64,000 nucleotides of DNA from an uncultured bacterium (GTDB taxonomy: Bacteria; Patescibacteriota; Gracilibacteria; Absconditabacterales; Absconditicoccaceae): the NCBI GenBank assembly GCA_947169045.1, contig CAMVOC010000007.1:1-64000 (forward strand). Direction: 5' to 3'. Position numbers and translations under genes: made by a program. The stretch's first letter is position 1. Every line of letters begins with the position of its first letter. Positions 9,294-54,919 of this stretch are shown one piece after another. A model generated the notes under the pieces. That model was not told the origin of the DNA and did not search any database. It saw nothing but the letters and a program-made list of their open reading frames with translations.

Positions 9294-9370
9294 AGAATAA
9301 ACACTATTTTTATTAGTAATTACTATTTTCTTTTTAATTGCAAGAGAAAATTACTATTTTATAAAAAAAC

Positions 9371-9441
9371 AGGACCTGAGGGAATCGAACCCCCGACGCG
9401 GAGCTTTGGAGACTCCCGCTCTACCCCTGAGCTAAGGTCCT
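9371..9441 (-). tRNA. tRNA-Trp (CCA)
   Basis: Acceptor AGGACCT/AGGTCCT, anticodon stem GGAGT/GCTCC around loop CTCCAAA, anticodon CCA. The 3' CCA end is not encoded. With CCA it reads only UGG, as expected where UGA belongs to Gly. Confidence 0.93.
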
Positions 9442-9462
9442 GCGTATTGCATCAGGTATCTT

Positions 9463-14280: not shown

Positions 14281-14390
14281 CAAGTGGGGGTGTTTTAAGC
14301 AACTCCTCCGGCCTTCAGCCACCTCCCTTATCAGTGAGGAAATTTCTCCCCTGACAGGGGGAGTGCCCGCTTTAGCGGGAGAGGGGGTTG
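14281..14390 (+). repeat. GC-rich palindromic repeat cluster
   Basis: Successive hairpins, for example CTCCCCTGACAGGGGGAG and GCCCGCTTTAGCGGG, in an AT-rich setting. It overlaps the last five codons of the convergent hydrolase gene. It belongs with the dispersed GC-rich repeats but differs in sequence from the 11118/34018/58129 type. Confidence 0.6.
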
Positions 14391-16161: not shown

Positions 16162-16170
16162 TAATAAAAA

Positions 16171-16644
16171 ATGAAACAAAAAATGTGATTATTTAAAAAA
16201 TTTTTTGTATGAGATAGATTCTATCCATATACGTATTCTATTTTGTTTTTTATATCATCATTAATCTATTATTATTTTGTCGAATCTCACCTTGATTTCT
16301 TTAAATTCTGATGAGATAGACTAATAACATTTTCAACCACTGTTATTACAGTTATATCAATATTTATTTGATTTATCGGTGTTTGAATGACACTCATTTT
16401 TCAAGGAAAAGAAAATTCAAATATTAAAATGATAAAAGCAAATAACAAATATGACTTGCTATTAAGTTATTTTAAAGAACCTATTCTTTTAGGTTTAATT
16501 TTAATTGCACTTAGCATGCTTATTTCAATGTGATTAGCTTTATTTCCTTTTATGGTTATATTTTATATATCTTTTTTTGCATTATTACTTTTACTAAATT
16601 ATAGGATAATATATTTCTTATTCAGAATATTAAAAGATAACTAG
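16171..16644 (+). CDS. four-helix membrane protein, 157 aa
   Basis: Four hydrophobic stretches (about 22-37, 52-75, 105-122 and 125-145) with short loops and a basic N-terminus (MKQKMGLFKKF). UGA encodes most glycines. Similar in outline to small pore-like or anchor proteins found in defence operons, but no family is recognised. It abuts the next gene with no gap (TAG then ATG), so the two are translationally linked. Confidence 0.6.
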
Positions 16645-16887
16645 ATGAAATATTGATTACGAAAAAAATATAGATATGCTTATCAAAATTCTTTTATTAA
16701 TTCAAAATTTTCAATGATAAGTTTTGATAAATTCCAAAAGACAATAACAGATAGTAGAAAGTCTGGTATGAATAAATACAAAGATATTATGTCTCAATTT
16801 CATGATGATATTAATATTGCAACTTCAAGGGAATTTCAAAAGCATTTTAATGGATTCTATAGAATCAGACGTAATATATATAATTAA
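16645..16887 (+). CDS. small basic unknown protein, 80 aa
   Basis: ATG directly after the stop of the membrane protein gene. Lys/Arg/Tyr/Asn-rich, with no hydrophobic segment. Its stop overlaps by 4 nt the stop of the convergent PHP-AAA gene. Function unknown; the abutting layout suggests it works with the two upstream products. Confidence 0.55.
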
Positions 16888-19682
16888 TTATTTATAAAAG
16901 AATATTTATTTTTTCTCTGTTCAAAAGCTTCTTTTCATCATTCCAATATTTCACAAATATGTTCCTGTATTCATTGTCTGTATAAAATACACTCTTCATG
17001 TAAATCTAGTTCTTTAGTATCTTCTAGACTTCATTCCACATACTCAAATCTATAATTTTTATTTTTAGATTTATTTCATTCTTGATTAGCTACAATTATA
17101 CATTCTGCATCGGTACCAACAACCAAATTAGGATTATGTGTAGCAATTATAAATTGCCTACTTTTTTTCTTTTCTTTTATAAATCTTGCTAAATCCTGAT
17201 AAATAGAACGATTATCAAGATCATCTTCTGGCTGATCTAACAAAATAGGACATTTACTATTGTCTAATTCTATCAACAATTTCAATAAAACGTATGATTT
17301 TTTTCATGGAGACATTTGATCTAACTCATCACCATCTTCTTCAATTTTATAATTAAAGAAATACCATGATTGAGATAGCTTTGTTATTACTTCCTTTTCT
17401 GTAAAACCATTTCTAATCGGTAAATCTTTATCCTTAGATAAGGTCTTCGATATAATAGATTTTACAGTTTTTTCAAATTGATCTATATCCATATTCTCAC
17501 TAAATTGACACTCTTCTGGAAGATTTTTTCTCTGATCAAAAACCCTCGTCAAAAAATTTTCATTAAGCCTTAAAAAATCAAATTTTACTTCAATATCAAA
17601 CACTAAACCATGTTGTTCTGTAATTACTTTTTGCTCTAAAATGTCATTTTTTATACTCATTAAAATAAAATAATAACTAGAAATATTTTTTGCAAGTTCA
17701 GTAACTATATTTTTATATTTGCTTAATATAGATTCTCTTAAAGTTTCCTCTATTATAATATCAGCAAGTTTCTTCTTTTCTACTTTTAACCTATTTATCT
17801 TTTCCTTTAATAATTGAGATTTTTTTATTTTATCATTCAATGGTTGAATTTGTTTTTCTAAATTTGTAATACTTTTTGATAATTCTATACAATATTTTTC
17901 TTTTTCTTCACAAAACTCTAATAATTTATTTTTTAAATTATCAACATAATATTCTTCTTGTACTTCAAATTCATGAATCAATATATCTTTATAATCTTTT
18001 GGACATTCCGATATATAACTCTCTACTTGGGGATTTAATCAAAAATACGAATCCAATCATTGTAATTTCTTATATATTTCAATTGCTTTTTTAGTCATAA
18101 TAAGACTCCTTCTATTTTCATCTATATCTTTTGTAAGTTGATTATATAACTCTAATTCCTCAGAAGTTAGATTGATTGATTTCTTTAGTATATCAATATC
18201 TTTTTCTAATGAATTTATCTCATTTTCTATTCACTTTTTATCTCATATATTTTTCATTTTTTCATTACATTTTTTTCATTCATCTATAATAAAGAATAAA
18301 TCCTCGATATTTTTATTCAAAGTCTGAGAAATTACTCTTTTTTGTTGATCTAATTTTTCAAACGCCAAACTTATATTTAAATCATTTTTTAAAATATTTA
18401 CTATTATATCGATAATTGCATTTTCTGATTTTCAATCTTCTGTAATTCTATTTAAATAAGATTGTGGTATATAAATTATTTTCTTTTCAAGATTTTCATT
18501 AGATTCTTGTCAATCTCACCACATAACACTAAATTTATTAATTATTTTAGTATTTATTGGCATTGAAATATCTTTTAATCTTTGTTCTACTTCTTTCTTA
18601 TCTATAGTTTCAGCTATAGCTCTTAACAAAATAGATTTTCATGTAGATTTTCATCAGATAATGGTAGTCAAATTTTTACTTAATAAGATTTCATTTGGAG
18701 TAAAATCATTATCAATGAATTTAACTTTGTCGATTAATAAATAACTCTCCTTATCTTCTGGTAAAGCTTCTTGAATTTTTACTCTATCTTCTGGTTCATA
18801 TAATATCTGTTTTAATCATTCAAAAGTTGGATTCGCCTTTATCCAACAAAATCTATTTAGATCAGGTACACATATTACTCTTCCTCAGGTACTTCAATGG
18901 TAATCAGAGCCGTGAATACACGGTTTAAGTGATCCATATTTTTCAATGATTGTTTTTTCATCATCTACTCATTTTCATAAAAAATACATTCTATCACTCT
19001 CCTGTGATGAAAAAATAAAATCAACTCATCTATAAATTATGTTTCTAATTCAAGGTAAATCTTTAATTCAAGATACTCCATCTTCACTGTTATTTGACAC
19101 TCATATTAATATATTATTTCTAAAAAAATCATCCTGTTCATCTAACTTCTCAAAAAAATTCTGATACGTTATACAAAACTCATTTAGTCATCTTTTTAAG
19201 GCCTCTTCATCTGATTCTTTTTTTTCAAAAGTCCTTCATAATTCTATTAAATCAGTTTTTTTACACGTAAAATTACGTCCTTGTTGAGGGAATATAAATG
19301 AATATAAAAATTGTTCAATTTTATCATCTGATAAATTTTCTGTATTAAAAAGAACATGCAAATTAATTTTCTTTCAATCTCTCGTTTCTGGTGTTATCCT
19401 TAATTCTAAATTAGGTATAATAAGTTTTATGTTAGATAAACTATCCTTATATTTTTTTACCTCTTTATATCATTCAATTGAAAAATAATCAGCCACTCAT
19501 AATACAGCAATATCTGATAATCACTTCAATTCATCAATAAAATTTTCCATTTTTCACTCTCTTGAAGTTCACTTATAGTCATCCTTCTTTATTAGTGTAT
19601 ATTCGGTTGGAGCATGAACGTGTAAATCCCATTTTCTCCATTCTGATCATCTTTTAAAGTCCATAATATCGTTAATTATCAT
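16884..19682 (-). CDS. PHP-domain / SMC-like AAA ATPase (TrlF-like)
   Basis: 932 aa, open only with TGA=Gly. The N-terminus WRKWDLHVHAP holds the H-x-H of PHP phosphoesterases (H21, H23), and a later HGSDYH supplies more ligands. An ABC/SMC-type ATPase follows: Walker A GGKSTGKS (about 343-350), a long coiled coil (about 440-640), and Walker B PILLDQPEDDLDN (about 810) with a downstream IATHN. This is the layout of TrlF-family PHP-AAA proteins, which occur in defence islands. Expected to be a nucleic-acid- or nucleotide-acting hydrolase. ATG 19682 chosen; ATG 19664 is also possible. Confidence 0.8.
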
Positions 19683-19706
19683 ATAAAATACTTATAAATA
19701 GAATGT

Positions 19707-20150
19707 TTATTTTCATTTATCATTCAATCCTTTTTCTATATTGCTCAAATATTTCAATATTTCCTTTTTATACTTTTCTTCTGATTTTTCTTTCTTTTTA
19801 AATTCCTTGTTTATAAATTTATTATAAATTTTTATATTTTCCTTTTTTTCTTCAAGTGCTACTGCTATATTAACTCAAACAATTAATAGAAAAAAAACAA
19901 ATCACGATTTCCACCAAAAATGATCTAATACAGTCATAGCTCATAAAATTCCTAAAGCTATCGGAATATTTAAAGATAAATAATCATGTTCAGATTCCTT
20001 TAAAAGGATTAATTCATCTAATGTTTTATTCTTTAAATCTTTCTCATAAACTGGCTTTCTTTTATATAAATTTCGATGTTTATATATAAAATCTCGCACT
20101 TTATCTAAAATATAGAACCATAGCTTTTTCATAACAGAATAAATAAACAT
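19707..20150 (-). CDS. membrane protein upstream of the PHP-AAA gene, 147 aa
   Basis: Two membrane segments (about 60-80 and 83-100), a basic N-terminal part and a Lys/Glu-rich coiled C-terminus. It precedes the PHP-AAA gene by 24 nt on the same strand, so they are likely one operon. The promoter ends only about 10 nt before ATG 20150, so MKKLWF (ATG 20132) may be the true start. Unknown family; plausible membrane partner of the ATPase. Confidence 0.6.
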
Positions 20151-20160
20151 ATAAATACTT

Positions 20161-20188
20161 ATTTATACATTTCCTACAACTTTTGTCA
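20161..20188 (-). promoter_or_regulatory. promoter of the PHP-AAA operon
   Basis: TTGACA (20188-20183), 16-bp spacer, TATAAA (20166-20161) on the minus strand. It sits in a short divergent region shared with the BcgI-like R-M genes, where TATAAT at 20232-20237 is the likely plus-strand -10. Confidence 0.65.
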
Positions 20189-20246
20189 AGTATAATTAAT
20201 TTATCTGTCTCGTTTTTCTCTTCCAATTTTTTATAATATTTATATC

Positions 20247-22181
20247 ATGTTTGTAAATATTTTTATTGACACACAAAAAGATAAAATGGCTATCAATGAA
20301 AGACACTCAGAAAGACTAGTCGAACAGAAAATGTGATTTGATTTAGGTAGTAATGAATTTTGATGGGTATTCGCACAGTGAGAACATGCAAATGCAAGAA
20401 TAGACAGCGCTCTTACAAATGCATGATGAAAACCAGATTTGTGTGAGATTAACGATTATACAAAATGATGAAAATGAAAAGCAAAGCCAGAATATATAAT
20501 AACATTTAAAGGAAACGATAATACAATAATTGTAGTTGAATGTAAAAGCGATCCTAAAATGCATTGCAGCGTAAATTATAATCAACCAAAAAAATATGCA
20601 GTTGATTGAGTTTTATATTATGCTAAATATTTAAAAGAATATTACAATGTCATAGCTGTAGCTGTTAGTTGAACAAAGACACAATTATTTAGGTCTAGTA
20701 TGTTTTATCGACCAAGATGACAAGAATCATACCAAGAATATACAAATGCACAAAATGTTCTATTATCTGCAAACAACTATTTAGAATTAATAAACGGGAA
20801 AGAACTAAGAGCTACTTATAAATTACAAGATGTAAAGGAACTTGCTATTATGATGCATGAATCTTTGAGAACTGTAAAAATGACTGAAAAATTGAAGCCA
20901 TTATGTATAGCGTGAATACTTATAGCGTTACAAGATAAAAGTTTTAGTAATAGCTATAAAGATATTAAAGATTTTGACACACTTTTATTAAGTTGTGAAT
21001 CAGCTATAGATAGAGTTTTACATGGTTGAGAAATCCCAGAGAAAAAAATAAAAGAAATTAAAACAGCATTTTGACAAATTGATTGAGTAATACAACTAAA
21101 GAAAAAAGATTTAAGTGAAGATGGTTCATTAAGGCACTACATTAATATTCTAGAGATGAATATAAAGCCAATGATGTGTCATATATGAAATACAATTGAT
21201 GCATTATGAGTTTTTTATCATGAGTTTATTACTTATTCTTCTTGAGATTGAAATACCTTATGAATTGTTCTAACACCTCAACACCTTACAGAATTTATGG
21301 CTGAGCTAATCAACATAAAAAAAGATGATAAAGTACTTGATATTTGCTGTGGCTCATGAGCATTCCTAGTAACTGCTATGGGAATAATGTTTAAAAATGC
21401 AACACCTAATGAAATAGAATATATTAGAAAAAACAATCTTTACTGAATAGAACAGGATTCTGATATTCATACTTTAGCCTTAGCTAACATGATAGTTAGA
21501 CAAGATGGGAAGTCAAACATTATCCATTGAGATTGTTTTGATAAAGAGGCTTATTCAAAATTACAGGACTTAACTGACACTAATTGAAAAAGAATATCAA
21601 TCAATAAGTGACTTCTTAATCCTCCATATTCTCAAAAAGATCATACTGAACTTGAATTTTTAGAACAAGAATTAATGCTTGTAGCACCTGGATGAGAAGT
21701 TGCAATAGTATGTCCAATGTCTTGTGCAATAGGAACAAAATTTAAAGAAGAAAGAAGAAGACTTATGGAGAAGCACACTCTTAAAGCAGTATTTTCGATG
21801 CCCGATGATATTTTTTATTGAAATAAAGCCTCTACAAATGTTTGTGTAATGGTACGAAAAGCTCATGAACCTCATGATTCAGAAGTCCCTACGTTTTTCT
21901 GATATTATAAAGATGATGGTTTCGTAAAGAAAAAGAAATTATGAAGAATAGATTACTATGATAAGTGGGAGTGAATAAAAAAAGAATGGATAAATTTTTA
22001 CAAAAAATGAGATGTAAAGGACTGATTAACAGCTAAAGCTTGCGTTACATGCAGTGATGAATGGTTATGTGAAGCATATATGGAAACGGACTATTCTCAA
22101 TTATCCGAAAAAGACTTTCAAAATACGGTTAATAACTATCTATCATATTTAGTTAAGAAATGAGATATTTATGAAAATTAA
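20247..22181 (+). CDS. fused restriction nuclease - N6-adenine methylase (BcgI-like type IIB/IIG RM subunit)
   Basis: 644 aa with 33 UGA and only about 11 GGN glycine codons. The N-terminal 180 aa hold a nuclease-type core, ARIDSAL..KPDL then TIIVVECKSD (about 95-102). After a helical linker comes the gamma-class methylase: VLDICCGSGAFLVTAM (about 363) and LLNPPYSQ (about 455). A fused nuclease-methylase followed by an S subunit is the BcgI arrangement, in which one complex both methylates and cuts on both sides of a bipartite site. ATG 20247 is near the promoter; ATG 20286 (MAINERHSE) is an alternative start. Confidence 0.82.
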
Positions 22182-23139
22182 TACAATAAACCGAAAATAT
22201 TTCTCTTTGGGTGAATTATTTGGATACTCAACATCTAATGATGATTATTTATCATCTTATAACAATTGAGATGTTGAATATGTTTCTTCTAGTGCTGAAA
22301 ATAATGGAGTTTCGAGCATGATTGATGCTATTCCTTCTCAAAAATGAAACACACTTACAATTGCTAGAAATTGAAGTGTTTGAACTACATTTTATCATAA
22401 AAATTCATATTGTGCATCATCTGATGATATAAGAATACTTACACCAAAATTTAATATGAGCTCTTATATATGATTATTTTTATCCACAATTATAAATAAA
22501 GAATCTTTTAGATTTAGTTATGGCAGGAAATTAACAAAAGATAAAGTACTTAATATGAAAATTAAGCTTCCAGCAGATGAATCTTGAGATCCAGACCGAG
22601 ATTATATGGAAAATTATATTAAATCATTACATCATAAACCAATTACAACAAAAATTAAATCATGAAAATATGAATTAAATATTTGAGAATGGAAAGAATT
22701 TAGAATTTGAGATATTTTTACACAAGATAGATGAAAAGAATCAGCTCCAAACCAAAATTTAGATTGAGAGACTCCAATTGTAAATGAAACAGATAATAAT
22801 AATTGAATAACAAGGAATGTTGAGCCAACAAAAATATTCAAATGAAATGCTATAACTATTTCTATTAATGTATGATATAATGTTTTTTATCAACCATATG
22901 ATTTTTGTGCTTCTGTAAATATAGCTATACTAAAGTCAAAATATCTAAATAAATATAATTGATTATTTATTGTTTCGTTAATTAAACATAACAATAAAAG
23001 ATATAGTTATTGATATAAAACGAGCAAAGATAAAATAAATGATATGATTATAAAACTTCCTGTTGATAAGAATTGAAACCCAGACCGAGAATTTATGGAA
23101 AATTATATAAAAAATTTACCATATTGAGATAGAATCTAA
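22171..23139 (+). CDS. specificity subunit of the BcgI-like R-M system
   Basis: 322 aa, ATG overlapping the methylase stop by 11 nt (translational coupling). Two target-recognition halves: each has a motif like NTLTIARNGSVG or AITISINVGYN, ends with a YGRKLTKDKV or YGYKTSKDKI box, and closes with LP-D-GDPDRDYMENYIK or its second copy. This duplicated layout is typical of type IIB S subunits. It supplies DNA recognition to the fused nuclease-methylase. Confidence 0.85.
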
Positions 23140-23147
23140 TCAATTTC

Positions 23148-23178
23148 AAAAAAAGCTACCCTTTCGGACAGCTTTTTA
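23148..23178 (+). terminator. bidirectional terminator
   Basis: AAAAAGCT and AGCTTTTT enclose a 14-nt loop between the convergent S-subunit and toxin genes. Confidence 0.6.
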
Positions 23179-23568
23179 TATCTGATAATTAAACTTTGAA
23201 TAAATTTCTTTATGATTTTCTTTCAGTAATTTCTGCCACCAAACCGTTTCATTTCATCATTGAATATCCGTTTTGGTATAAAGTAATAAAATCTGAACTT
23301 CTTTTTTGTCTTCATCTACATAAACTATAATTCTGTTTCATGAAGTTTTGGGAGATTCGTTGGATCATGCTATCTTAAATTCATATTTAGCTATATAACA
23401 ATTATTTGATTTATGAATTCTTTCAGCTTTTGAAGTTTTGATAAACATATCAATACGAGTTAGCATTTCATTAATCGCTTTCATCGTTTTGTCCCAAGTA
23501 TTTTTATACCTTTTGCTAAAAGGTTTTATGAAGTGTCTTTCTGCATAAATGGAGTGCAGATATAGCAC
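23176..23568 (-). CDS. RelE/YoeB-like toxin-type protein
   Basis: 130 aa from GTG 23568 to TAA 23176. The segment PFSKRYKNTWDKTMKAI resembles the first helices of RelE-type RNases. GNRIIVYVDEDKKEVQ with LLLYTKTDI and a late NETVWWQ resemble the sheet and C-terminal part. Several glycines are UGA. No antitoxin gene is adjacent. Its first 14 codons overlap, in another frame, the end of the truncated SDR gene, so a shorter form starting at an internal ATG is possible. Confidence 0.55.
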
Positions 23569-23912
23569 ATACTCACCACGGCTTTGATATTCAAATCAAT
23601 CATATTCAGAGAATCTTCAAGCGGAATTTCATCACTAGCTCAGAATTTTCCATATCAGGCATTATTCACTAGATATCTGATTCTACACTTAGTTTCAGTC
23701 AGCTTTTTGGAAAATTTGATAATCTCGTCATGAACTGAAAGATCTATCGTATAAGGGACTATTTTATCTCAGTACTGAGTTTTGAGTTCATTTAATTTAT
23801 CTTTACTTCTAGCTAGGACTCGGATTTGATCCAAATCTTTTTCTTGGATAAGGTTATCTACAAAGATTTTTCATAATCCTGAACTAGCTCATGTAACGAT
23901 AGCAATTTTCAT
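23526..23912 (-). pseudogene. truncated short-chain dehydrogenase (SDR)
   Basis: 128 aa; intact SDRs have about 250. It keeps the NAD(P) loop TGASSGLGK (residues 7-15) and the LVNNAGYG motif, but ends before the YxxxK active site. The frame meets TAA where the toxin gene begins, so the 3' half appears to have been replaced or deleted. Three UGA glycines in the motifs show that the code reassignment predates the loss. Confidence 0.75.
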
Positions 23913-23939
23913 TTTTGGTTTGTGGTTTTGGGGTAAATT

Positions 23940-25385
23940 TTATTTCAATAATCACTTTAAATTCTGAATATGACTTTTAATCTCAACATCAGATTTTTCT
24001 ATATCTTCCAAAATCTCTTTTGGATCTCTTAAAATTTCTTCCTTATTCTTATTAGGATTTTTAGCTGATAAGTCGTAATCTTTAATATCTCATACTTTTA
24101 CAATCCATGAATTTTCTCATAACTCTCTAGAATTATAACAATCAATCATTCATTGCAATTCTTCAAAAGTTATAGGTTTATTTTTCGTGAGTTTACGACC
24201 TAAATCTACTTCATAATAATAGATTTCTTCAGTTGGTTTAGTCTTTTCAAAAAAGATAACATTCGTTTTTACTCATGCGTAAGGTAAGAAAATTCCTGAA
24301 GGTAAACTAACAATCGTATGGAGATTATAATTTTCCAAAAGTTCTCTTTTTACTCACTGAAAAGCATTTGAAGTATTGAACAATACTCATTCTGGAACGA
24401 TTATCGCAGCCCTACCTCATGATTTCAGTTTTTTCATGAAATGCTCGAGGAATAATATTTCAGTAGCATTAGATTTTATCGGAAAGTTAGCCTGAATTTC
24501 TTCTTTTTCTTTACCTCAAAATGGAGGATTTGCAAGAATAATATTGAATCAATCCTTTTCTTGAAAGTCTCTAATATTATCAATCAATGTATTTTTCTTA
24601 TTAATATTTGGATTTTCTACTCCATGAAGAATCATATTCATCACTCCCATAATGTAAGCAATAGGAGTTTTTTCATTTCACCATAAAGCATCATGATTCA
24701 ACCAATTTAAATCAGCCGTAGTTTTAGCTTTTTGACGGAGATGATTATAAGCTTCAATTAAGAATCCACAAGAACCAGCAGCTCAATCGTAAATAGTTTC
24801 TCAGATTTTTGGATCTATACATTCTACCATAGCTTTAATAACTGCTCTTGGGGTATAAAATTCTCCACTATTTCATCAATCATTTCCCATTCATTGAAGT
24901 AAATCTTCATAAACTTTTGAAAGTTCAAAAAGGTCTTCACTGGATTGGAAATTCATTCAATCAATAATATCAATTACTTCTCTCAAAGTATTTCAGTTTT
25001 CTATTCTATTTGAAATAAAGTGAAATATCTCTCAAATTTTATATTTCATACTATGATAATCTGTAGAATTATCACGGAATTTATCGAGATATGGAAAGAG
25101 TTTTAGATTTACAAATTCTTTCAAATCATCTCAAACCATAGCAGATAATCTATCAATTTTTCCATTTTTCTTTGGCGCTGCCCAAGTAGACCATTCATAT
25201 TCTGGAGAAATTAATTTATGATAAGTTTTTCAGTTCAAACTAGCTTCTAATTCTTGAGCTTTTTCATAATCATCAAAGAATTTCAGAAAAAGAATCCATG
25301 AAATCTGTTCAGTATATTGCATAGCTCATGAGATTCCGTCATCTCTACGGAGAATGTCTGTAATACGATTAATTTCTGCTTTCAT
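23940..25385 (-). CDS. hsdM: type I restriction-modification methylase
   Basis: 481 aa with many UGA glycines. The N-terminal HsdM helical domain (GAMQYTEQISWILFLKFFDD) is followed by GEFYTPRAVIKAMV, the AdoMet motif DGAAGSCGFL (about 198) and the catalytic ANPPFGGKE (about 285). It methylates adenine within the site recognised by HsdS. Last intact R-M gene of the operon R - PIN - S - unknown - M. Confidence 0.92.
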
Positions 25386-25395
25386 TAAATAATAA

Positions 25396-26091
25396 TTATT
25401 TACTTAAAACACGATCATCTATTTTATCTAAGAATTTATAGATAATAGGGATATATTTTTCAAAATCTAATCTATCAATTACTTCATACATAACATATTT
25501 TTTATCTTGTTCATTTATTCAAGGGTATAATAATCAGATAATTATATCTATATAAGCCTTTTTTAATTCAATTAAATTATCTGATAAATATTCATTAAAT
25601 AATTCTCTTTCTTTTTTTAGTTTATCTCTTTTATTTTCTCACTTATTGTCTATATAATCATCAATACATTCTTTAAAAGAATCTCCATAAGCATCTAATT
25701 TTATTTTTCATTTGTTAATTACATCTACAAAATCTCAATTCTTCATATAATTTTCCAAATGAAAATTAATAGGGCTATTTGAATCATTCATCATTTTTTC
25801 AAGAGTTTCAACTGATAATTCTCAATTATCTAAATCTTTATCTTCAATTCCAAGTAATATTTTTCATTCATCACTTTTTATTCAGCCATTAACTGACTGT
25901 AATTCTTGCATAAACTCTTTAAAATATTCAAATATATCTGAATATAAACTTATCATTCTTGGATTATCTTCCTTTTCTTCCTGTTTCTTTTTTTCTTCTC
26001 TCTTTTTTTCAAACCCTTTATAAACTTTTTCAACACATAATTGAATAAAAGTCTGTATAAATGTTTGAAAAATTAAATTCTCATCTGCCAT
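25396..26091 (-). CDS. unknown protein between hsdS and hsdM, 231 aa
   Basis: ATG 26091 overlaps the hsdS stop (TAATG), and the stop is 10 nt before hsdM, so it is an integral operon member. Mostly helical and highly charged, with a Lys/Glu-rich stretch (KGFEKKREEKKKQEEKED) near residues 30-47. No membrane segment and no recognised motif. The larger upstream ATG (26109) would start inside hsdS. Its fixed place in an R-M operon suggests an accessory role. Confidence 0.6.
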
Positions 26092-27302
26092 TACTCTACT
26101 AATTCTCATTTAAAAGCTTTATCTAATACACTCTTTTTCAATTCTTCCAAGTTATCAAGTTGAGATTGATATTTTAACTTTAACTCTTTCACTTCTTGAG
26201 AGACTTGGTCTAAATGTTCAACGATTTTTTCTTGCTCTGAAAGTGGTGGAACTGGAATAGTGACTGTTTTTATATTTTCAAGATGCAAGTTTGGAACTCC
26301 TGCTCATTTTAAACTTTTATCAAATTGTCTTTTACAAATCGGACTGTTAACTATTCTGTGTAAAAATCTTGGTGTAATTATTTTCTGATTTGGTCTTAAA
26401 ACAGCAAGAGTTACATAAATATCAAAAATTCTATCATCTTCAACGATCGCAGCAACTCAAGTTGTTCAGTTTTTAGCTAACAAAACATCATCTTTTTGTG
26501 GTGCTATTCTTGCATATAACTCTTCATGTAAACTTTGTGGAATATGCTTTATTCATCATTCTCGATCTATATATTCTTTTGTTACATCTTTTGAAGAAAT
26601 GAAAGGAATTCACTCTTTTTCTCCACAATATGTAGGAGTTTGGTGTGTTCAATCTGTAATTTTTTGTAAACAAACATCTTGTAAAGTCTTCATCCCCCAA
26701 TTTCCATGAAAAGCTTGATTCAAAGCTGACTTCCAAAGTTCGTCCGTATTATCCAAGTTCTTCTGAATTTCTGATTTAGTCTGGTCAAGTTCAGCAAAAA
26801 TCTGGTCAAGTTTAGCGACTATGGCTTTTTGAGTTTCAAGCGGTGGAAGTGGAATTTCTATATTTTGTAATCTTGATATTGCTAATTTTGGCATTGCGAC
26901 TGCTCTTGAAGCTAATCAAGCCTGATTTCCAAAAGATTTTGAATTTGTAAAATATAAAATATATCTATTATCTATTTCATATTTTCAATTATATACTAAT
27001 CTTACAGCATTTTCTGTTAAATTTGCTCAATTCAATTCAGCTGGAATTATTCAAGTTTTTCAAATCGTTCAGGCAATGCTTACATATAAATCTTTATCTG
27101 TTATAATATATTTTGATATTTGCTCATAAATCTCCTTTGTAATATATTTCACAGTTGAAATATCTACTGTTCAATTATCTCAAAAATCGGAAACTCTAAT
27201 ATATGGATATTCCGTTTTTTTATCTTGAACAAAATTTCATTTTGGTAATCTCTTTCATGATTTTATATTTGCTATTTCTCAAAGTTTTACTGTTGGTCGC
27301 AT
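26091..27302 (-). CDS. hsdS: type I restriction-modification specificity subunit
   Basis: 403 aa with two target-recognition domains. Each is followed by a conserved helix: IEIPLPPLETQKAIVAKLDQ (about 136-155) and the second copy VTIPVPPLSEQEKIVEHLDQ (about 343-362). The C-terminus, LDKAFKGELVE, is complete only when TGA is read as Gly. It gives site specificity to HsdM/HsdR. The start overlaps the stop of the PIN gene (TAATG). Confidence 0.92.
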
Positions 27303-29179
27303 TATTTTTCCTTTCTCTTGTTAAAAATCTCTTGTGTTTTCTTATTCACAAACCTAGTTACGGTTTTGTTATATAAATTTTCAAATGTTTTCTTAACTGG
27401 TTTTACAAAATTAATTCATAATAAAGATGCTGTTGTAAAAACAATAGTTATTTGCTGTGAATATTTTCAAAGAAAATCAAAAATTCATAACTTTGACAAT
27501 ATATAACATACTAAAATTACTACTATTAATATTGATAGTTTTACTGTCCGAAGTAAAAAATTCGCCTTTTTCTTTGCTCCTATTTCTATATTTTCTTTTG
27601 CTACTGATATTTGAGATTCAGCATCTTCTTGTTTCTTTTTTATTGTCTGATTTGCTAGATATAGTCATTCAATTTTTCTTTTTGCACTATTTTTCTCTCA
27701 ATGAATTTTTTGAATAGATTCTTCTGACAAAATTTTTGAAAAATCTAAATTTCATGTTTTTTCAACTTCTTTTTCTAACTCCAATAAACTAGATTTTGTA
27801 CTCTCCATGGCCAATAAAGCAGCACAATCTTCATGTGATATTTCTTTTGACTCAACTTTTCTTCCTAATTCTCACAAAAATGATTCTCGCAAATTATTCG
27901 AAATAACATGTTTTTTCATATTTCAATTTAAAAATTGTCGTATTTCCGATATATTTACAATATTTGGATTTTTTAACCACAAATATGTTGCGATAGATTC
28001 TATGTGTATTATTTCTGGGACTGTTCAATCTTGATGTAATGTTAAATTCCAAGAACTAAAATGATTATCTAATGTTAAAAATATTATTTTAGATTTATCT
28101 ATTGATTTTGAGTAAATTGAATGCAAAGAATATCTCTGTTTTTTTATAAATATTTGCATAAGTACATCGTGCTCAATTATTTTTTGTGACGATTTTTTCT
28201 TGTATTGTGATAATGATTGTGTTTTTTCTGAGAATGAACGGTCTTCACTTAAAGAGTCTTTAGATGTAATATAATTAATTTCAATATCATTTTTTTCCAT
28301 AAAAGATTCAATATTTTCAATAATAATATTAATATCTGACTTTGATTTATTTTTCAGTTTCATATTATAATAAATATGATCAACAGGATAATTACTGAAA
28401 TAATTTTCTGGTTTATAACCATCTAATAGCTTATTTAACTCATTTAAGGTCAAAGATGACACATACAATTTTGCATTCATTCACTTTAATTTTTCTACAA
28501 TTTCTCTTGTCATAATATTAACAGATTCCTCATGATATCACAAAAGACTTATTATAATATTTGTATCCAAATAGACCTCTAATCCGTTAAAATTATCAAA
28601 TATTCAATCAATATCTCTCTGAACCAATAACTTTGAAAGGAATCATGTATAAAGTAGTCATATAATTTTATTATATTTATCTATATTTTTTCTTTTTGTA
28701 TCAGAAAGATATTTAAAAAATTTATTTAATATATTTTCACTTGACTCTAACTCCAATCACTCATCTACCGAAAAATCTACTTTAGTTATATCAGATTTCA
28801 AAAACATTTCTACAATATCTTTTAAAGATGCCGTAATTCCTAGTTCTTTTAAATCATTTTCTATATCATCAAATCATTCATTTTCATAATTTTTAGTGCT
28901 TTCGATTCTATAATTTTCCCCATTTTCAGTTAATATATATACCTCAAACTCTTTATAGTCTATATATCATTTTTTTCTTAAATTTTTTAATAAACTTTTT
29001 CAAACTTCATATGGTACGTTAATTCAAGTTTCATGCCCCATTTTTTCTAATATTTTCTTCGTATTATTAGTTTTATTGTTAGAAAATAATAAAAGCATAT
29101 CAGAATATATATCCATTATATCTTTTTTTGATTTAGAGAAATGTGACTCTAAGAATGCATATGCTACTTTATAATTCAT
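27302..29179 (-). CDS. membrane-anchored PIN-domain protein in the type I R-M operon
   Basis: 625 aa. An N-terminal winged-helix-like part (FEVYILTENGENYRI, about 75-90) precedes a PIN nuclease core: VYLDTNIIISLLG (about 199-211), an acidic TLNELNKLLDG (about 245), and FLTLDNHFSSW (about 365-378) with the later acidic position. A helical, coiled region follows, and two membrane segments near the C-terminus (about 537-590, ILIVVILVCYI and TIVFTTASLLG). PIN domains are metal-dependent RNases. It lies between hsdR (21 nt) and hsdS (TAATG overlap), an arrangement that recalls PrrC-type guard nucleases in R-M operons, although the fold differs. Confidence 0.72.
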
Positions 29180-29200
29180 CTCTTCACAATATTTTAATTA

Positions 29201-31555
29201 TTAAATCTTAAACAACTCACCTTGTACATCTTTCCACATATCCGTCAAAACTTCTGCTCATCATAGTTCTCTCGTAAAATCCATAATGCTCCATCTATTC
29301 TTTGAGAATAACTTTATCAAATCTCATAATTTTGACTGAACTATCTCTGTACTTCCATGCTCTGCATAATAACGAAGCAAATATTCTACGAAATTTCTCG
29401 CTGTTAAATTCTGGATAGATTCCACCGTTCATTGTCCCAATACATGTTGAGCTCTTTCTTCTTTAGTTTTCATTTCTTCTCCAAATGAAAGGTGTGTCAA
29501 AATATCAAAAAGGTCTGAATCTGGTGCACTAAACATTCTTTTCAAAACTTCAAAATGTTCTTTATCCAATCAAATTTTTTCTAATTCTTTAAGTAAATCT
29601 TCTCTGGTTTTAGGGTCTGACCACAATTCTCTGAGTTGATTTTCATCTGCATAAAGTTCTGGTAATTTTCCTACCAACATTTCCAAATATTCTTTGGAAC
29701 CCATTGGCTTTCCTGTTCAGTCAATATATCTCACATCTACATCTATAATTTTTAGTTCTCTTGCATTATTTAATCTGACCACCAATTTTGGTTTAACTCA
29801 TTCACTCTCATCATCAGTCTTTCAACCACTAGTTTTAGTAGGTTTATTAGTCTGACCATCATCATCGTATCATCATTGACCTTCATCTACTTCTTCATCC
29901 ATGTTTGGTCCATCCCAATCTTCATCATAAAATAATTCTGAAGCTCAAGTAAAGTCTATAATCGTGAAATAATCTTTTCCATCAAAAACTCTGGTTCATC
30001 TTCCTATAATCTGTTTAAATTCTGTCATACTTGTGATATTACGACAAAGCACGATATTTCTCACATTTCTCGCATCTACTCAAGTAGTTAGCATTTGAGA
30101 AGAAGTTACGATAGTTGGAATCGTTTTATCATTATCTTGGAATCTCTCTAAATACATTCTTCAGATTTCTCATTCATTACTGGTAATTCTGACACAGTAA
30201 TCATTATCTTTCACCTGTTTAAATTCATTGATTGCATCTCTCATTCCTGCCGCATGTTCTTGGTCCACACAGAAAACGATCGTTTTATCATCTTTACGGA
30301 TTTGTTTTAAGATCTCTTGTGCTACTAACTTTCTCCTTTCTGGAACTACGATTTCTCTATCAAAATCTCATAACGAATAAAAATTCTTTTGCACTTCTCC
30401 TCTCACCACTGTAACATCGCTATCGATGACTAATTCATCAAGGTTTGTCCTAATTCTTTTGACTTTATAAGGGGTTAAAAATCCGTCATTGATTCATTCT
30501 TTCAAGGAGTATTCATAAACGGGATTCCCAAAATATCGGTAGGTATTGTTATTATCTTGTCTTTTTGGAGTAGCCGTCATTCATAATTGAACTGCACTAT
30601 TGAAATATTTTAGGATCTCTCATCGGTTTCCATCTTGTTTTGCTCATCATCTATGACATTCATCTATAATAACCAAATCAAAAAAATCTGGATCATATTG
30701 TTTGTAATATTCTGTGAACTGTGTTTCAGCTGTTTCATCTGTGATTTCATCTTCATCACTTCATGAAATAATCGCTTGATATATCGCAAAGAAAACATTT
30801 CCATTGATTGGTACTTGTCATAATGCTTTCTTGATTTCTGTTCCCCTAATCCATTTACAATCTTTCTCAATCGGATTGAAAGTATTGATTGCCTGTTTTA
30901 TCAAGATATTTCTGTCTGCTAAAAAGAGAATACGAGGTCTGCGGTTTGCTCCTTCTTTATTCCATTTCGCTTGAAGTAATTTATATACTATTTGAAATGC
31001 TACATAAGTTTTTCAAGTTCCTGTCGCCATCGTTAGAAGTATTCTTTGCTTTCATTTTGCTATTGCTGATAATACTCTTTGAATAGCTAAATCCTGATAA
31101 TAACGAGGTTTTTTATTACTATCCACATAATAAGGAATACCTAAAATCTGTTGTCTTAATACAGCAGATTCATCAGTATAACGTTCATATAATTCTTCTG
31201 GAGACGGATATTTATCTATATATTTTCACGTTCATTCTTGCATATCCCATTCATAAATTTCATGTCAGTTTGAAGTATATAACCATCTTACTCCTAAACT
31301 TTTTCCATATCATTTTACTTGTTCCAGTCATTCCGTTGGTGGTAAATCTTCTTTTTTCGCTTCAATTATCGCTAAATTCAGTCCATAATCTTTCAATAAG
31401 TAATCAATGAATTTTGGTTTTCATCTTTTCCCTCCTGGTAAAATTCTTCCATCAGTAAAAGAGTATTCTCTTTCAATCTGAGATTCTTTTCGTCCTTGCT
31501 CATGTAGAGCAGGATCTATAAGTTTAACTCTTGTATCAGATTCTGAGTATCACAT
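29201..31555 (-). CDS. hsdR: type I restriction endonuclease motor subunit
   Basis: 784 aa. The N-terminal nuclease has LAIIEAKKEDLPP (about 57-69). The SF2 helicase motor has LTMATGTGKTYVAFQ (about 172-186), VIIDEGHR (about 297), MTATPKR, and IGRGTRVFDGKDYF; most motif glycines are UGA. It translocates and cuts DNA lacking HsdM methylation. A stretch rich in Asp/Gly (near 540-560) is low complexity. ATG 31555 has UGA as codon 2. Confidence 0.92.
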
Positions 31556-36859: not shown

Positions 36860-37819
36860 ATGCAAAAATCATCAAAAGAACAAAAGAAAGTTTTCTTCTC
36901 TACTATGGAGAAGTTAAGGAAAAGCCAATCTCTTAAAGAAAAGCTTATTCCTTATATTCAGATCAACTATCCATCACTTTTATCTAATCCTACAAGAAAA
37001 CAAAGAATTACTGAATGTTGTAATCTTGTAACATTCCGTAGGTATTTAGAAACATGAGATGTTCAATTAGTCTCTTCTAATTTCTGTAAATATGATCGTA
37101 TCTGTATAGCATGTGCAACTAAAAGAGCTATGAGAATGATTAAGAAGTTTAAGGAATGAATAGAATCTCATGATTTATACAATAAACAACGATATTATAT
37201 CGTATTAACTATTTCTCATAAACAGTGAGATGAATTAGAAGATTTAATGAAAAGATTACAACTCTATAAAAGCAGATTATCAAAAGCTTATAGAAACAGC
37301 AAAAGAGATAAACAAAAAACAAAGAGCTTTTTTGCTCAATTTGATTGAATGGTTATATCTATAGAAATTGCTCATAAATGAAAATTTTGATGGCATCCAC
37401 ATATAAACATATTAGCATGTTCTGATAATGATATCCCCATTGAATCAATATATCAACGTTGAACAATTAATCCAGATTTATTAGAAGAATGGAAAAAGAT
37501 AACAGATTGAACAAGCTATATCCATAATATCCGTAAAATAGAAATTAAAAAAGATCACTTTTCAAGGAGCTGAATATGAGAAGTATTCAAATATGCTATT
37601 AAGTTTTCAGATTTAACTGTTGAACAATTAGCTCAGGTAATGGTAGCTCAGCATAAACATCAATACAGATTCTTTGAAACATACTGAATCTTTAGATGAT
37701 GGAAATTAGCAGAATGATGTACATATGATTGAGATTGGAGTGAATGAGTATTTCTGTATGATAATTCTAAGAAAGATTATGAAATGATTAATAATAATGA
37801 TAAATCATTAGTTATATAA
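36860..37819 (+). CDS. rep: rolling-circle replication initiator (HUH Rep, Rep_1-like)
   Basis: 319 aa with many UGA glycines. A Cys cluster FCKYDRICIACATKR (about 75-90) and RYYIVLTISHKQG precede the HUH motif GKFGWHPHINILAC (about 174-187). A late GEVFKYAIKFSDL (about 246) carries the candidate catalytic Tyr. Such enzymes nick the plus origin and join covalently to DNA through Tyr. First gene of the integrated element. Confidence 0.85.
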
Positions 37820-37957
37820 AACATCAATTTACTGTTCTAAAGAGAGATATCCTATTAAAATAATAATTATAAAATTTTCTCTTGATTTTTTGTTCTAATT
37901 TTATAATACCTTGTTATACAAAGTACTATTAAATTTAAATAATGACTTTAAAAAACT

Positions 37958-38284
37958 ATGTGAGAAGCTGAAAAAATAACGACTCAAATGAAAAAATGAA
38001 TATTAGAATATTTAATTCTTAGTATCATTTCAAAATGAGACGTTTATGCAAATGATATTATTACAAAGCTAAAAAAGGCTAATTTGATTGTAGTTGAATG
38101 AACAATGTATCCCTTATTATCCCGCCTAAAAACAGAGAAATTGCTTGAATATGTTTGGGTAGAATCTGTTCAATGACCTCCAAGAAAATATTATAGACTC
38201 ACGAAAAGATGAAAAGAAACTTTAGATGTTATGCATCAGGTTTGGAAGGGATTAAGTGACAGTGTAAATCAAATAGTTAATTAA
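37958..38284 (+). CDS. PadR-family transcription regulator
   Basis: 108 aa. Winged-helix core: KKGILEYLILSIISKGDVYA (about 11-30), VVEGTMYPLLSRLKTEKLLE and GPPRKYYRLTKRGKETL. PadR proteins repress neighbouring genes and release DNA on ligand binding. It precedes a HAAS-PspC protein by 23 nt; PadR-HAAS pairs are a common regulatory unit. ATG 37958 has UGA as codon 2. Confidence 0.9.
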
Positions 38285-38307
38285 TTTATTATTTAATCAT
38301 TATAAAA

Positions 38308-40308
38308 ATGAGTGAATTAAATTTCCAATGACAAAAATTCAAAATGGAAAATTCTGCAAAAGATTTCTTAGAGAAATATATTTCTAGGATTAAAAAATAT
38401 GCAGAATCTCATAATATTTCTGATGATTTGGTTGATGATATTTATCAAAGTATATTAGATAAATTATTTGATATCAAATGAGATATAACTCAAAAGAAAT
38501 TAGTTTCAATTGTTAATTCTATTTGAGAACCAGAAGATATTTTTGAAGATGATATGGATTTAACAGAAAAAGAAGAACCTAAAAAGGAAAATAAATCAGA
38601 TTTGAAACCTTATGAGAAATGGCAGAAAACGAATTGGACTAGACCACGTGATAAATCAATTCTACTCGGAGTATGTGCTATGTTTGGCCAAGCAACAGTA
38701 ATCCCCACACGAATTTGGAGAATATTTGTTATTCTATGAAGTCGGTTCTTTTTAGCCACAGATATGGAAGAATGATTTTTCTTTGGATGTGGTGTTTATC
38801 TTGTTTTAGCATTAATTTTCCCGATAAAAGATAAAGATTATAAACATTGTTCTATGTTGGTATATCGTTGAACTCAAGTTAGAGATTTAAGGTTGATGAT
38901 ACCTAATTTCTTTTCACGATTTTTCTGATTATGTAAGTGGTTCATTAAAACAGCCATTCCTTCAACTATAAAGTTTCTTTCAAGATTGTTTGGACCAATC
39001 TGGACATTCATTAAATATTCATTCTTAGTCTGTTGGTCTTTATTCTTAATATTTGTTCTTGTTGGGTTAGGATCTCTTCTTTATTATTTGATATTTGGAT
39101 TTGTTAGATGAAATATTGATTATACTACGATATTTCCATGAATAACAAAGATTTGATTAATCCTATGAATCATTTCAGCATTCATTCTTTTATTAGCATC
39201 TATAGGTTCAATATTTAAGAAAAAACTTTCAAATGCTGTTTCTCTAATTATCGCAATCTGATGTGGTGTTTTAGCAATTATAATTGCTGTAATTAGTATT
39301 TCTGAAATCTATTTTACAATGAATATGATAGCATGAACAGATAGAACTGAGATTAGAGAAAAGGAAATAACAATTCAGAATAAAGAAACACCTGTTCATA
39401 TTAATATAGATCGTACGGTTGAAAATGAAGACTTTTTAATTGCTGAAAATCAATTTGTTTCAGTACTTCCATCAAACAATGATAAAATCAAAATAGTTTA
39501 TACCTTCCATTTTAAATGAAAGTGAGAAGATTTGACTACAGCTATTGAAAATATATCAGATGTAGATTATTCTTGGAATTGAGATACTCTCAATATCTGA
39601 TTAAAAAATTCTGAGATTTTCAGTAAAGTTACACCTTTTATTCCAACAACCATAGAAATTGATTTATATCTACCAAAAAATTTAGATTTTGATTTCCAAA
39701 ATTCACGAATACGTTTGATTAATTTGGATACTCCTACACGAGCTTCATGAGTAGGTTCTGTAAGTGTATGGGATTGTGTAAATATAAAGTATAATTCTGA
39801 GACAGATAAATTTTTGTGTGAATTAAGTATGGGTTCTAAAGGTAGATATAATATAGCTAGAGATAACCTACAAGAAATAGCAGATGAAATAGTTCCATTA
39901 AGATGAATGAATTCTGTTTGGAGTATATCTTATGTATGATGATGACAAGTAGACTGATACCGAAAATTAGATTCAATCAATGTATGGGATGATAGTACGT
40001 TATTAGCAAAATTCTCTGATAAATTCTTTAACTTCTTTATTGAAATAGAATACAATATTGATAATGAAACATGAGAATTTACATTAATTGACTCAAAAAT
40101 AAAGCAGTTAGAACAAAAATGACTAATGGATAATGAAAGGATGTCTCATTATGAATGATGGGAAAATTTGTCAGATTTTGAAATTCAGATGAAAGATGAT
40201 GAAGAGGATAAGATTAAGAAAGAGCAAGAGATTCAAAATCTTCAAGATAGAATAAAGGCATTGGAAGAGAAATTGGATGAATTAACATTAGATTCTTCCG
40301 AAAATTAA
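38308..40308 (+). CDS. HAAS-PspC multi-domain membrane protein
   Basis: 666 aa. Residues about 14-75 match the HAAS (DUF1700-like) helical domain (FLEKYISRIKKYAESHNIS). A PspC-like segment follows (DKSILLGVCAMFGQATVIPTR, about 113-133), then several membrane helices (about 225-345). A large beta-rich outer domain (about 360-590) follows, and a C-terminal coiled coil rich in Glu/Lys. Probably a membrane stress sensor acting with the PadR product. Most glycines are UGA. Confidence 0.75.
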
Positions 40309-40498: not shown

Positions 40499-40583
40499 AA
40501 AAAAATGAAGGCTTTCAAACCCTACATTTATCAGTCAATCACGTATTTTTTGAATATTTTAGCTCCAAAAATGTACATGGAGC
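40499..40583 (+). repeat. right direct repeat of the integrated element
   Basis: 85-bp copy of 36544-36628. Its last six bases (TGGAGC) are the encoded CCA, U73 and first acceptor bases of the tRNA-Gly gene on the minus strand. Confidence 0.85.
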
Positions 40584-40654
40584 GGGTGACGGGACTCGAA
40601 CCCGCAACAGTCTGCTTGGAAGGCAGGAACTCTAGCCAATTGAGTTACACCCGC
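40578..40654 (-). tRNA. tRNA-Gly (UCC)
   Basis: Acceptor GCGGGTG/CACCCGC, U73 and encoded CCA. Anticodon stem CTGC-type with loop CTTCCAA, anticodon UCC. It reads GGN glycine codons and is the integration neighbour of the rolling-circle element. Confidence 0.92.
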
Positions 40655-52911: not shown

Positions 52912-53463
52912 CTATTTGCTAAATAAAATAATACTATATCCCTGAGCCTCCTTTTTTGGAGTGTCATATTGAGATCTTCCGTAAGGTGATAGCGTTTCTT
53001 TTGCCTGTAAGATTTTTTCTAAAGCTTTGTCTGCATAAATCTTTTCTCTCCCTCTCAATCTGATACTTACCTTTACATTATCCCCGTTTTTTAGGAATTC
53101 TTCGGCTTTTTTCATCTTGAGAGCTAAGTCATTATCACCAATCCCGTAAGAGATTTTGATTTCTTTCATTTCTTTTCCTTTTTGAGCTTTACGTTTTTCC
53201 TTTTCTTCTTTCCCTTTTTGGTACATATACTTTCCATAGTCCGTCAGACGTACTGTCGAAAGCATCTTTTCCATATCGTAACTAATTTGTACGAGGTCTA
53301 ATTCAGCTTCTTGAGCTATTTCTAATGCTCTTCTGCGTGAAAACGTTCCAAGATTTTTCTTCTCGTCATCAATAATCATGATGTTCGGCGCCTTGATTTG
53401 GTCGTTAACATAGACCATTCTGGCTTTTGGATTAACACTAGCGATTCTTGGATTTTGCCCCAT
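52912..53463 (-). CDS. infC: translation initiation factor IF-3
   Basis: 183 aa from ATG 53463. VNDQIKAPNIMIIDDE (N-domain), LVQISYDMEKMLSTVRLTDYGKYMYQKGK and the C-domain IKISYGIGDNDLALKMKKA are canonical. It binds the 30S subunit and checks start codons. The expected rpmI-rplT neighbours are absent; rplQ follows instead. Confidence 0.93.
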   Translation of the reverse strand: MGQNPRIASVNPKARMVYVNDQIKAPNIMIIDDEKKNLGTFSRRRALEIAQEAELDLVQISYDMEKMLSTVRLTDYGKYMYQKGKEEKEKRKAQKGKEMKEIKISYGIGDNDLALKMKKAEEFLKNGDNVKVSIRLRGREKIYADKALEKILQAKETLSPYGRSQYDTPKKEAQGYSIILFSK

Positions 53464-53496
53464 ACACGCAAAAAAGAGAAATAAAAGACTGTTTCC

Positions 53497-53568
53497 GCTC
53501 CCGGCGGGGGTCGAACCCGCGATTTCCACCGTGAGAGGGTGGCGTCCTAACCACTAGACCACGAGAGC
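53497..53568 (-). tRNA. tRNA-Glu (CUC)
   Basis: Acceptor GCTCTCG/CGGGAGC, anticodon stem CCACC/GGTGG, loop CTCTCAC. No encoded CCA. Confidence 0.9.
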
Positions 53569-53588
53569 CTACATTTGAAGCTCCAATT

Positions 53589-53659
53589 ACCCCTGCCAGG
53601 GATCGAACCTGGATCCACAGCTTAGAAGGCTGTTGTTCTATCCATTGAACTACAGGAGC
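53589..53659 (-). tRNA. tRNA-Arg (UCU)
   Basis: Anticodon stem ACAGC/GCTGT with loop CTTCTAA, anticodon UCU. Acceptor GCTCCTG pairs with CAGGGGT through wobbles. No encoded CCA. Confidence 0.88.
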
Positions 53660-53692
53660 ATTAGGTACAAAAGTACCACAAGATTTTTACAT

Positions 53693-53775
53693 TGGGGAGA
53701 GTAGGATTTGAACCTACGTAGCCGTGAGGCGACTGATTTACAGTCAGTTGCAATTGACCGCTCTGCCATCTCCCC
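53693..53775 (-). tRNA. tRNA-Tyr (GUA)
   Basis: Acceptor GGGGAGA/TCTCCCC, anticodon loop CTGTAAA, long variable arm (GCCTCACGGC) as usual for tRNA-Tyr. No encoded CCA. Confidence 0.9.
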
Positions 53776-53785
53776 ATACAAGACG

Positions 53786-54040
53786 TTAAACGCCTGATTC
53801 TAGATTTGTTAGATTTTGTAATTCGTTCGCAGGAACTCCTATGTTAACAACTCCTAGCATAAAGAGTCCTCCTACTACGATGAGCCCAAATCCAATCAGT
53901 ATGATCAGATTTTTTGTCCCTCCTACATGCTCTTCAGCTCGAGCATTTCTTCAGAGGTGTTCTACCATCGGATTTGCAAAGTAGATTGCTGCTACTCCTC
54001 CCGCCATAAGCACTAATCCAAGAAGAATTCTTGCCACCAT
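53786..54040 (-). CDS. small two-helix membrane protein, 84 aa
   Basis: Two hydrophobic segments (about 3-22 and 45-66) with a charged loop (GRNARAEEHVGG). One UGA Gly. It is between tRNA genes on the same strand. No family recognised. Confidence 0.65.
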
Positions 54041-54067: not shown

Positions 54068-54141
54068 AGCGGATAACGGGACTTGAACCCGTACGAGCAG
54101 AGCTGAAGTCTGCTATGCTACACCAACTACATCATATCCGC
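54068..54141 (-). tRNA. tRNA-Gly (UCA), decoder of UGA
   Basis: Acceptor GCGGATA/TATCCGC with U73, anticodon stem GCAGA/TCTGC, loop CTTCAGC: the anticodon is UCA (54104-54106). G1:C72, C2:G71, U73 and C35 are glycine identity elements. Normal 7-bp acceptor and short variable loop exclude tRNA-Sec, and the lack of G73 argues against Trp. It explains the in-frame TGA codons throughout the window. Confidence 0.93.
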
Positions 54142-54179: not shown

Positions 54180-54207
54180 AGTGTAATCAATTACTGCATG
54201 AAATCAA
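54180..54207 (-). promoter_or_regulatory. promoter of tRNA-Gly (UCA)
   Basis: TTGATT (54207-54202), 16-bp spacer, TACACT (54185-54180) on the minus strand, inside the last codons of trmD. Confidence 0.5.
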
Positions 54208-54919
54208 GGGATTTTTCATTATTTTTTCTTCGTTGTTGAATTTCTTCTTGATTGCCGGTTAAAAGCACTTCTGGCACGCGTAAACCATAGACCTCCTCTG
54301 GTCTTGTATACTGTGGAAATTCTAAGTTATTCATTCCTGTTTTAAGGTTATAACTTTCATTTTGCCAGCTTTCTTTTTCTTTTATTACTCCTGGGACGAG
54401 CCTTGTAACTGCTTCTATCATCGTCATTGTCGCGATTTCTCCACCTAACAGAATGAATTGTCCTAGTGAAACTTTAGAAAAAGCTGATGGATATTTGGCC
54501 ATCATATATTCTTCAAAGCGATAATCGATTCCCTCGTAACGTCCACAAACAAAGATGATATGGTCGAGTTTTGATAGTCCATATGCCGTTTTTTGTGTAA
54601 ATGTTTCAACAGAAGGAGAAGGAAATATGATTTTCCACTGCTGAGTACTATTAGACTGTGTATTTTTTGCTGATTTTCAAGATGAGAATGAGGAAATTAC
54701 GTGTTCTACTGCGTCGATTACAGGTTGTGCTTTGATGAGCATCCCAGCTCCTCCGCCATATACTTGATCATCTACCTGCTGATGTTTATCGGAGCAAAAG
54801 TCGCGTGGATTAACGAAATCAAAGTCGAGGATCCAGTTTTTTTTTGCTTTTGCTAAAAGAGAGGTCGAAAGAAAGGAATCGAATACTTCTGGAAAGAGTG
54901 TGATGATGTGAATTTTCAT
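54191..54919 (-). CDS. trmD: tRNA (guanine37-N1)-methyltransferase
   Basis: 242 aa. MKIHIITLFPEVFDSF, DDQVYGGGAGML (the knotted AdoMet site), VCGRYEGIDYRFEE and LGGEIATMTMIEAVTRLVPG are diagnostic. It makes m1G37 next to the anticodon, preventing frameshifts. The tRNA-Gly(UCA) gene next to it has G37. Confidence 0.95.

Follow-up and report, generated by a model that had tools for sequence, protein, structure and literature searches.

A conserved tRNA-Gly(UCA) gene predicted to decode UGA as glycine in an SR1 genome

A tRNA gene with a UCA anticodon lies at 54068-54141 of the window, by which we mean the whole 64,000-nucleotide stretch of DNA that was analysed. It raises the question of whether this genome reads UGA as glycine and, if so, with what machinery.

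Structure and conservation of the tRNA gene

We find that the gene matches the Rfam tRNA model RF00005 at 60.8 bits (gathering threshold 29, E 1e-10), and that ARAGORN, Rfam and direct reading of the letters agree on a normal 74-nt class I cloverleaf with anticodon UCA. The window also holds an ordinary glycine tRNA.

54068..54141, (-) strand: tRNA-Gly(UCA), the predicted UGA decoder
40578..40654, (-) strand: ordinary tRNA-Gly(UCC), with the same glycine acceptor elements

Part by part, the gene reads GCGGATA UG AUGU AGUUGGUGUA GCAU A GCAGA CUUCAGC UCUGC UCGU ACGGG UUCAAGU CCCGU UAUCCGC U. The acceptor stem (GCGGATA/TATCCGC) has 7 bp and is followed by U73, the D stem (AUGU/GCAU) has 4 bp, and the anticodon arm is GCAGA-CUUCAGC-UCUGC (U33, U34 C35 A36, G37); the variable region is 4 nt long, the T arm is ACGGG-UUCAAGU-CCCGU, and a CCA end is not encoded on direct reading. 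Glycine elements by the criteria of PMC8629427 are present (G1:C72, C2:G71, G3:C70 and U73), with G1:C72, C2:G71 and U73 found in 29/29 homologues and G3:C70 in 28/29. A preliminary description of this DNA had reported a normal cloverleaf with G1:C72, C2:G71 and U73, and its coordinates, strand and anticodon prove exact. C36, a glycine identity base of E. coli, is missing from the anticodon, which counts against glycine charging.

The unusual part of the anticodon loop is A36-G37, found in 29/29 homologues; of the A36 tRNAs that the genome encodes, tRNA-Gly(UCA) is the sole bearer of G37. C32.C38 was rejected as a unique feature, since it recurs in tRNA-Asp, tRNA-Glu(CUC) and one tRNA-Gln of the genome. 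Neither tRNA-Leu nor tRNA-Gly(UCC) stands out as its ancestor (full-length identity <=0.72); in that comparison the D-arm match is no better than in shuffled controls, and the T arm is the only part nearest to tRNA-Gly(UCC).

The pattern of this tRNA occurs in 42 of the 49 genomes of its family (f1, SR1) and in 0/239 other genomes of the class; the seven family genomes in which it is missing are assemblies 65-91% complete. A search of a collection of 84,980 species returned 38 matching stretches, the complete RAAC1_SR1_1 chromosome among them, with titles that name SR1, Absconditabacteria, Gracilibacteria, Patescibacteria, one 'Peribacteria' MAG or no taxon. On viral contigs, exact patterns of the f1 type and of the f14 type described below found none. 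Across 17 distinct sequences, every one of the 357 helix pair cells holds a standard pair, both sides have changed in five of the seven acceptor pairs, and cells altered on both sides number 19 against 6.1 +/- 2.1 in shuffles. The UUCAGC loop, from U33 on, is invariant in 29 sequences. The locus is a real gene and not a chance match.

The meaning of UGA, CGA and CGG

The meaning of UGA was examined in frames from the window and 20 other genome stretches (464 kb), set against stretches from E. coli and from relatives that use the standard code (G050-G053); TGA, CGA and CGG were entered as unknown residues, and overlapping wrong-strand frames were taken out. Over 87 aligned genes, glycine stands at 90 of the 111 conserved cells that hold TGA and at 21 of the 22-23 columns in which at least two genomes agree; for control GGN codons the share of glycine is 78-88%. 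UGA is used 75 times per 10,000 codons and ends none of the 87 genes, which close with TAA (63) or TAG (24). TGA at conserved glycines had been noted in hsdM, and this holds in part: several TGAs of the HsdM of the window lie on glycines common to two solved homologues, but others do not.

The sole release factor in the assembly scores 432.9 bits against a prfA cut-off of 423.25 and lies below the prfB cut-off, so that RF1 is present. The preliminary description had proposed looking for the absence of prfB; none exceeds the cut-off here or in 36 family genomes, and in other families the gene is there in 20 of the 23 genomes. The three without it are two genomes of family f14 and G046, and there too TGAs lie inside genes. 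Although the assembly is only 93% complete, the missing prfB is meaningful, because all relatives also lack it. A dimeric GlyRS is found in the genome at G000:C2:4907-6286 (620 bits). The reassignment of UGA to glycine, as originally suggested, is well supported by these sequence comparisons, and it is already known in kind: as had also been recognised, it is published for SR1/Absconditabacteria.

We have very high confidence in a scheme of the following kind. A dedicated tRNA-Gly(UCA), first in a conserved tRNA cluster, would be expressed from a promoter of its own; the dimeric GlyRS would charge it through G1:C72, C2:G71, G3:C70 and U73; the tRNA would read UGA on the ribosome, where the loss of RF2 would leave it no competitor; and RF1 would terminate genes at UAA and UAG. 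Charging and decoding, predicted here, have been shown by others for SR1 and BD1-5: as far as PMC13293708 relays Campbell 2013, tRNA-Gly(UCA) is charged by SR1 GlyRS, and BD1-5 peptides at UGA comprise 97 unique Gly against 3 Trp (PMC4032931).

The use of UGA is uneven along the window. An island at 14372-31555 and 36860-40308 carries two type I restriction-modification sets (hsdM, hsdS, hsdR) and other genes. Within it UGA makes up 52-100% of glycine codons and GC is 0.21-0.36, against mostly 0-39% and 0.33-0.43 outside. It looks as if the island came from a relative that also reads UGA as Gly but makes heavier use of it.

UGA is not the only codon to depart from the standard code. Conserved CGA cells fall on Trp in 14/39, on Phe in 6, on Tyr in 4 and on Arg in none; CGG has two conserved cells, neither of them Arg. 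CGA occurs 37 times per 10,000 codons, nearly as often as UGG (48); the sigma-factor motif YATWWI is spelled with CGG-CGA, and a GWDCHGL motif, probably of IleRS, uses CGA. Both tRNA(CCG) and tRNA(UCG) of this genome (L037 and L048 of G000) carry G73 and U20, the former also A1:U72, in agreement with the tryptophan criteria of Shulgina and Eddy 2021 (PMC8629427), who published the CGA/CGG to Trp reassignment for Absconditabacteria. On this sequence evidence we read CGA as Trp in this genome, and the rare CGG probably as Trp too, with support that comes mostly from the tRNA and one motif. The idea that misreading of UGG drove CGA to take on Trp was rejected, as 14/39 CGA cells lie on conserved Trp, a lower share than for UGG (33/57).

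A U34 normally reads both A and G, and a tRNA with anticodon UCA must here be kept from UGG (Trp) and from UGU and UGC (Cys). MnmG was undetectable in 59/59 genomes of the class by a search that was positive in 12/14 controls, and MnmA was found in 58/59, this genome included. Because MnmG is undetectable, cmnm5U34 is probably missing, and the U34 of all split-box tRNAs in the 59 genomes probably lacks the cmnm5 group; s2U34 is possible because MnmA is present. U34 without MnmG should threaten fidelity at UGG and UGY. Candidates for sparing these codons are an s2U34 made by MnmA, the odd C38 with G37, and competition at UGG from the following tRNA.

9369..9442, (-) strand: tRNA-Trp(CCA), the putative competitor at UGG, with five anticodon-stem pairs

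Five pairs agree with the expectation that a tRNA-Trp(CCA) with four such pairs is avoided in genomes where UGA is Gly (PMC13092985). It is nevertheless conceivable that decoding is unclean, with U34 also reading some UGG and perhaps UGY, which would make UGG in part Gly and the proteome ambiguous. The failure to detect MnmG in 59 genomes would fit such a reading, superwobbling in Mycoplasma tRNA-Gly has been linked to an unmodified U34 and to C32 (PMC10853795), and ambiguity has been raised in eLife 71402. We consider it unlikely, since UGG lies on Trp in 33 of 57 cells and Gly does not rank among its leading residues, UGG is better matched by tRNA-Trp(CCA), and the MnmA that is present could give s2U34. 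The comparison makes one question sharper: how does a U34 tRNA separate UGA=Gly from UGG=Trp and UGY=Cys without MnmG?

Promoter and gene neighbourhood

The tRNA gene stands in the following setting, listed in the direction of transcription.

54191..54919, (-) strand: trmD (TIGR00088, 229.1 bits)
54201..54208, (-) strand: -35-like element CTTGATTT, within the final codons of trmD
54180..54185, (-) strand: predicted -10-like element TACACT, 16 nt after TTGATT, in the short gap past the trmD stop
53786..54040, (-) strand: small ORF of 84 aa with two hydrophobic stretches and one in-frame TGA, between tRNA-Gly(UCA) and tRNA-Tyr
53692..53776, (-) strand: tRNA-Tyr(GUA), the next tRNA downstream, a conserved neighbour in 26/29 relatives
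53587..53660, (-) strand: tRNA-Arg(UCU), conserved cluster member
53496..53568, (-) strand: tRNA-Glu(CUC), conserved cluster member
52912..53529, (-) strand: infC (TIGR00168, 126.7 bits), downstream of the cluster in 21/29 relatives; its true start is probably an ATG near 53463

The -35-like element recurs ahead of the tRNA in 21 of 29 genomes, where shuffles would give 0.15, and CTTGATTT followed by TAnnn[AT] is found in 20 of 29 against 0.05 expected; the compared sequences are kin, so that these shuffles overstate independence, though the surrounding sequence differs. A consensus promoter scanner did not flag the CTTGATTT/TACACT site. We conclude that tRNA-Gly(UCA) very likely has its own promoter, the -35 part of which overlaps the end of trmD in this genome. 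This bears out the earlier proposal of a promoter within the end of trmD, with the -10-like element placed just past the stop.

The usual order in relatives is tRNA-Gly(UCA), tRNA-Tyr, tRNA-Ala, tRNA-Arg(UCU), tRNA-Glu(CUC) and infC. We note that tRNA-Ala(UGC), which in most relatives lies between tRNA-Tyr and tRNA-Arg, is missing here (53660-53692), and that the 34 tRNA calls from the assembly (93% complete) include none for Ala, Val, Asn or Cys, which at least in part are probably assembly gaps. The 84-aa ORF inside the cluster looks membrane-protein-like and has no family match above cut-off; a gap of its size precedes tRNA-Tyr in most relatives.

In this genome trmD lies 49 nt upstream of the tRNA on the same strand, and the tRNA carries G37. 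This had led to the claim of a tight link, which can be put as a coupling in which TrmD methylates G37 and the pair is kept together for that reason. The adjacency is real, but it is confined to this genome: trmD lies beside the tRNA in 0/29 relatives (loci inspected 1.5 kb on each side where the contig allows). TrmD moreover requires G36 before G37 (PMC5372744), whereas this tRNA has A36-G37, and TrmD is not expected to act on it. We thus regard such a coupling as very improbable and the claim as one to be dropped.

Other readings, other families and known systems

Of the remaining readings, one takes the tRNA for a tRNA-Trp(UCA) as in code 4, or for a tRNA charged with another amino acid. 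The anticodon is indeed that of Mycoplasma tRNA-Trp, and low levels of UGA-Trp peptides are reported for BD1-5 (PMC4032931). We find this reading scarcely credible: U73 (29/29), G1:C72 and C2:G71 stand in place of G73, UGA columns are Gly in 90/111, and Trp-type G73 sits instead on tRNA(CCG) and tRNA(UCG). The other is a tRNA-Sec that places selenocysteine at a small number of UGA codons. ARAGORN does print SeC under the bacterial code, an outcome that had been named beforehand as one that would refute the glycine reading, but it does so because of the UCA anticodon alone and prints Gly with table 25. We give this reading practically no credence, as tRNA-Sec has a long acceptor stem, a long D stem and a long variable arm while this tRNA has a 7-bp acceptor, a 4-bp D stem and a 4-nt variable region, and UGA is found at 75 per 10,000 codons, on glycines.

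With glycine as the preferred meaning of UGA, we can ask whether the reassignment was invented once or several times, a question that comparison with other families sharpens. A single ancestral origin of UGA=Gly is stated in PMC13293708. Eight genomes of family f14 (L195-L202), which is recoded, lacks prfB and is by inference probably the Gracilibacteria/BD1-5 lineage, have a tRNA-Gly(UCA) of another kind, such as GCGGGGGUAACAUAAAAGAGUGAGUGUACUAAGGCUUCAACCCUUGGGUGUGCCAGUUCAAACCUGGUCCCCCGCUCCA. It has in common with the f1 tRNA the UCA anticodon, the GCG...CGCU acceptor, U73, C32 and C38; unlike the f1 tRNA, it has A37, lacks GG in the D loop and encodes CCA. The two are 60-63% identical, against 89% for tRNA-Gly(UCC) between the same families. 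The Rfam tRNA model missed the f14 tRNA in one genome (G066), and standard tRNA scans may overlook it. We note in passing a 139-nt tRNA-like hit in the same genome (L189, G066:C8:46982-47120), which ARAGORN interprets as a tRNA-Thr(AGU) with an intron and which may be an intron-bearing tRNA in f14.

A further recoded genome, G046 of family f12, uses UGA 691 times per 10,000 codons against 105 for all GGN (UGA ~87% of glycine codons), with 600 of 764 conserved UGA cells on Gly. Neither an RF2 nor an RF1 match was found in it, and no UCA tRNA in the parts and patterns searched; it has two tRNAs with anticodon CCA, one of them with A73. In a tree of RF1 and GlyRS, f14 groups with the standard-code f17 (97/96) and f12 (GlyRS only) with the standard-code f6/f7 (100/99), and one clade is disfavoured for f1+f14 (p-AU 0.03) and for f1+f14+f12 (p-AU ~1e-8), figures to be read in the light of both proteins being tied to the recoding, of weak deep nodes and of groups partly chosen after the tree was seen. 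A ribosomal-protein quartet for G046 gives p-AU 0.32-0.65 for all three trees and favours none of them. Because the f1 and f14 tRNAs are without recognisable shared descent and the GlyRS of G046 groups with f6/f7, UGA=Gly may have arisen more than once in this class. We put the chances of this somewhat short of even and treat it as a lead rather than a result; if true, it would contradict the single origin of PMC13293708.

Compared with known systems, the tRNA at 54068-54141 is the same gene as the SR1/Absconditabacteria tRNA-Gly(UCA) of Campbell et al. 2013, so far as that work is cited in PMC13293708. As the proposed comparison with known SR1 tRNAs bore out, its pattern is found in RAAC1_SR1_1 (CP006913) and MS502-49, and two genomes of the same genus have an identical tRNA. 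The tRNA itself is no different; the one feature that sets this genome apart is trmD as the upstream neighbour, and what we have done is to confirm the known recoding in one more SR1 genome. With NCBI genetic code 25 this genome shares UGA as glycine and UAA and UAG as stops. The earlier statement that it directly shows code 25 thus stands for UGA, but CGA, and probably CGG, is Trp here and not Arg, so that table 25 mistranslates this genome and gene predictions made with it in the window contain wrong Arg residues. With Mycoplasma tRNA-Trp(UCA) (code 4) it has in common the anticodon and the loss of RF2. The amino acid, the discriminator base and the logic of the codon box differ: unlike in Mycoplasma, the UGN box in this genome would be split among Cys, Gly and Trp.
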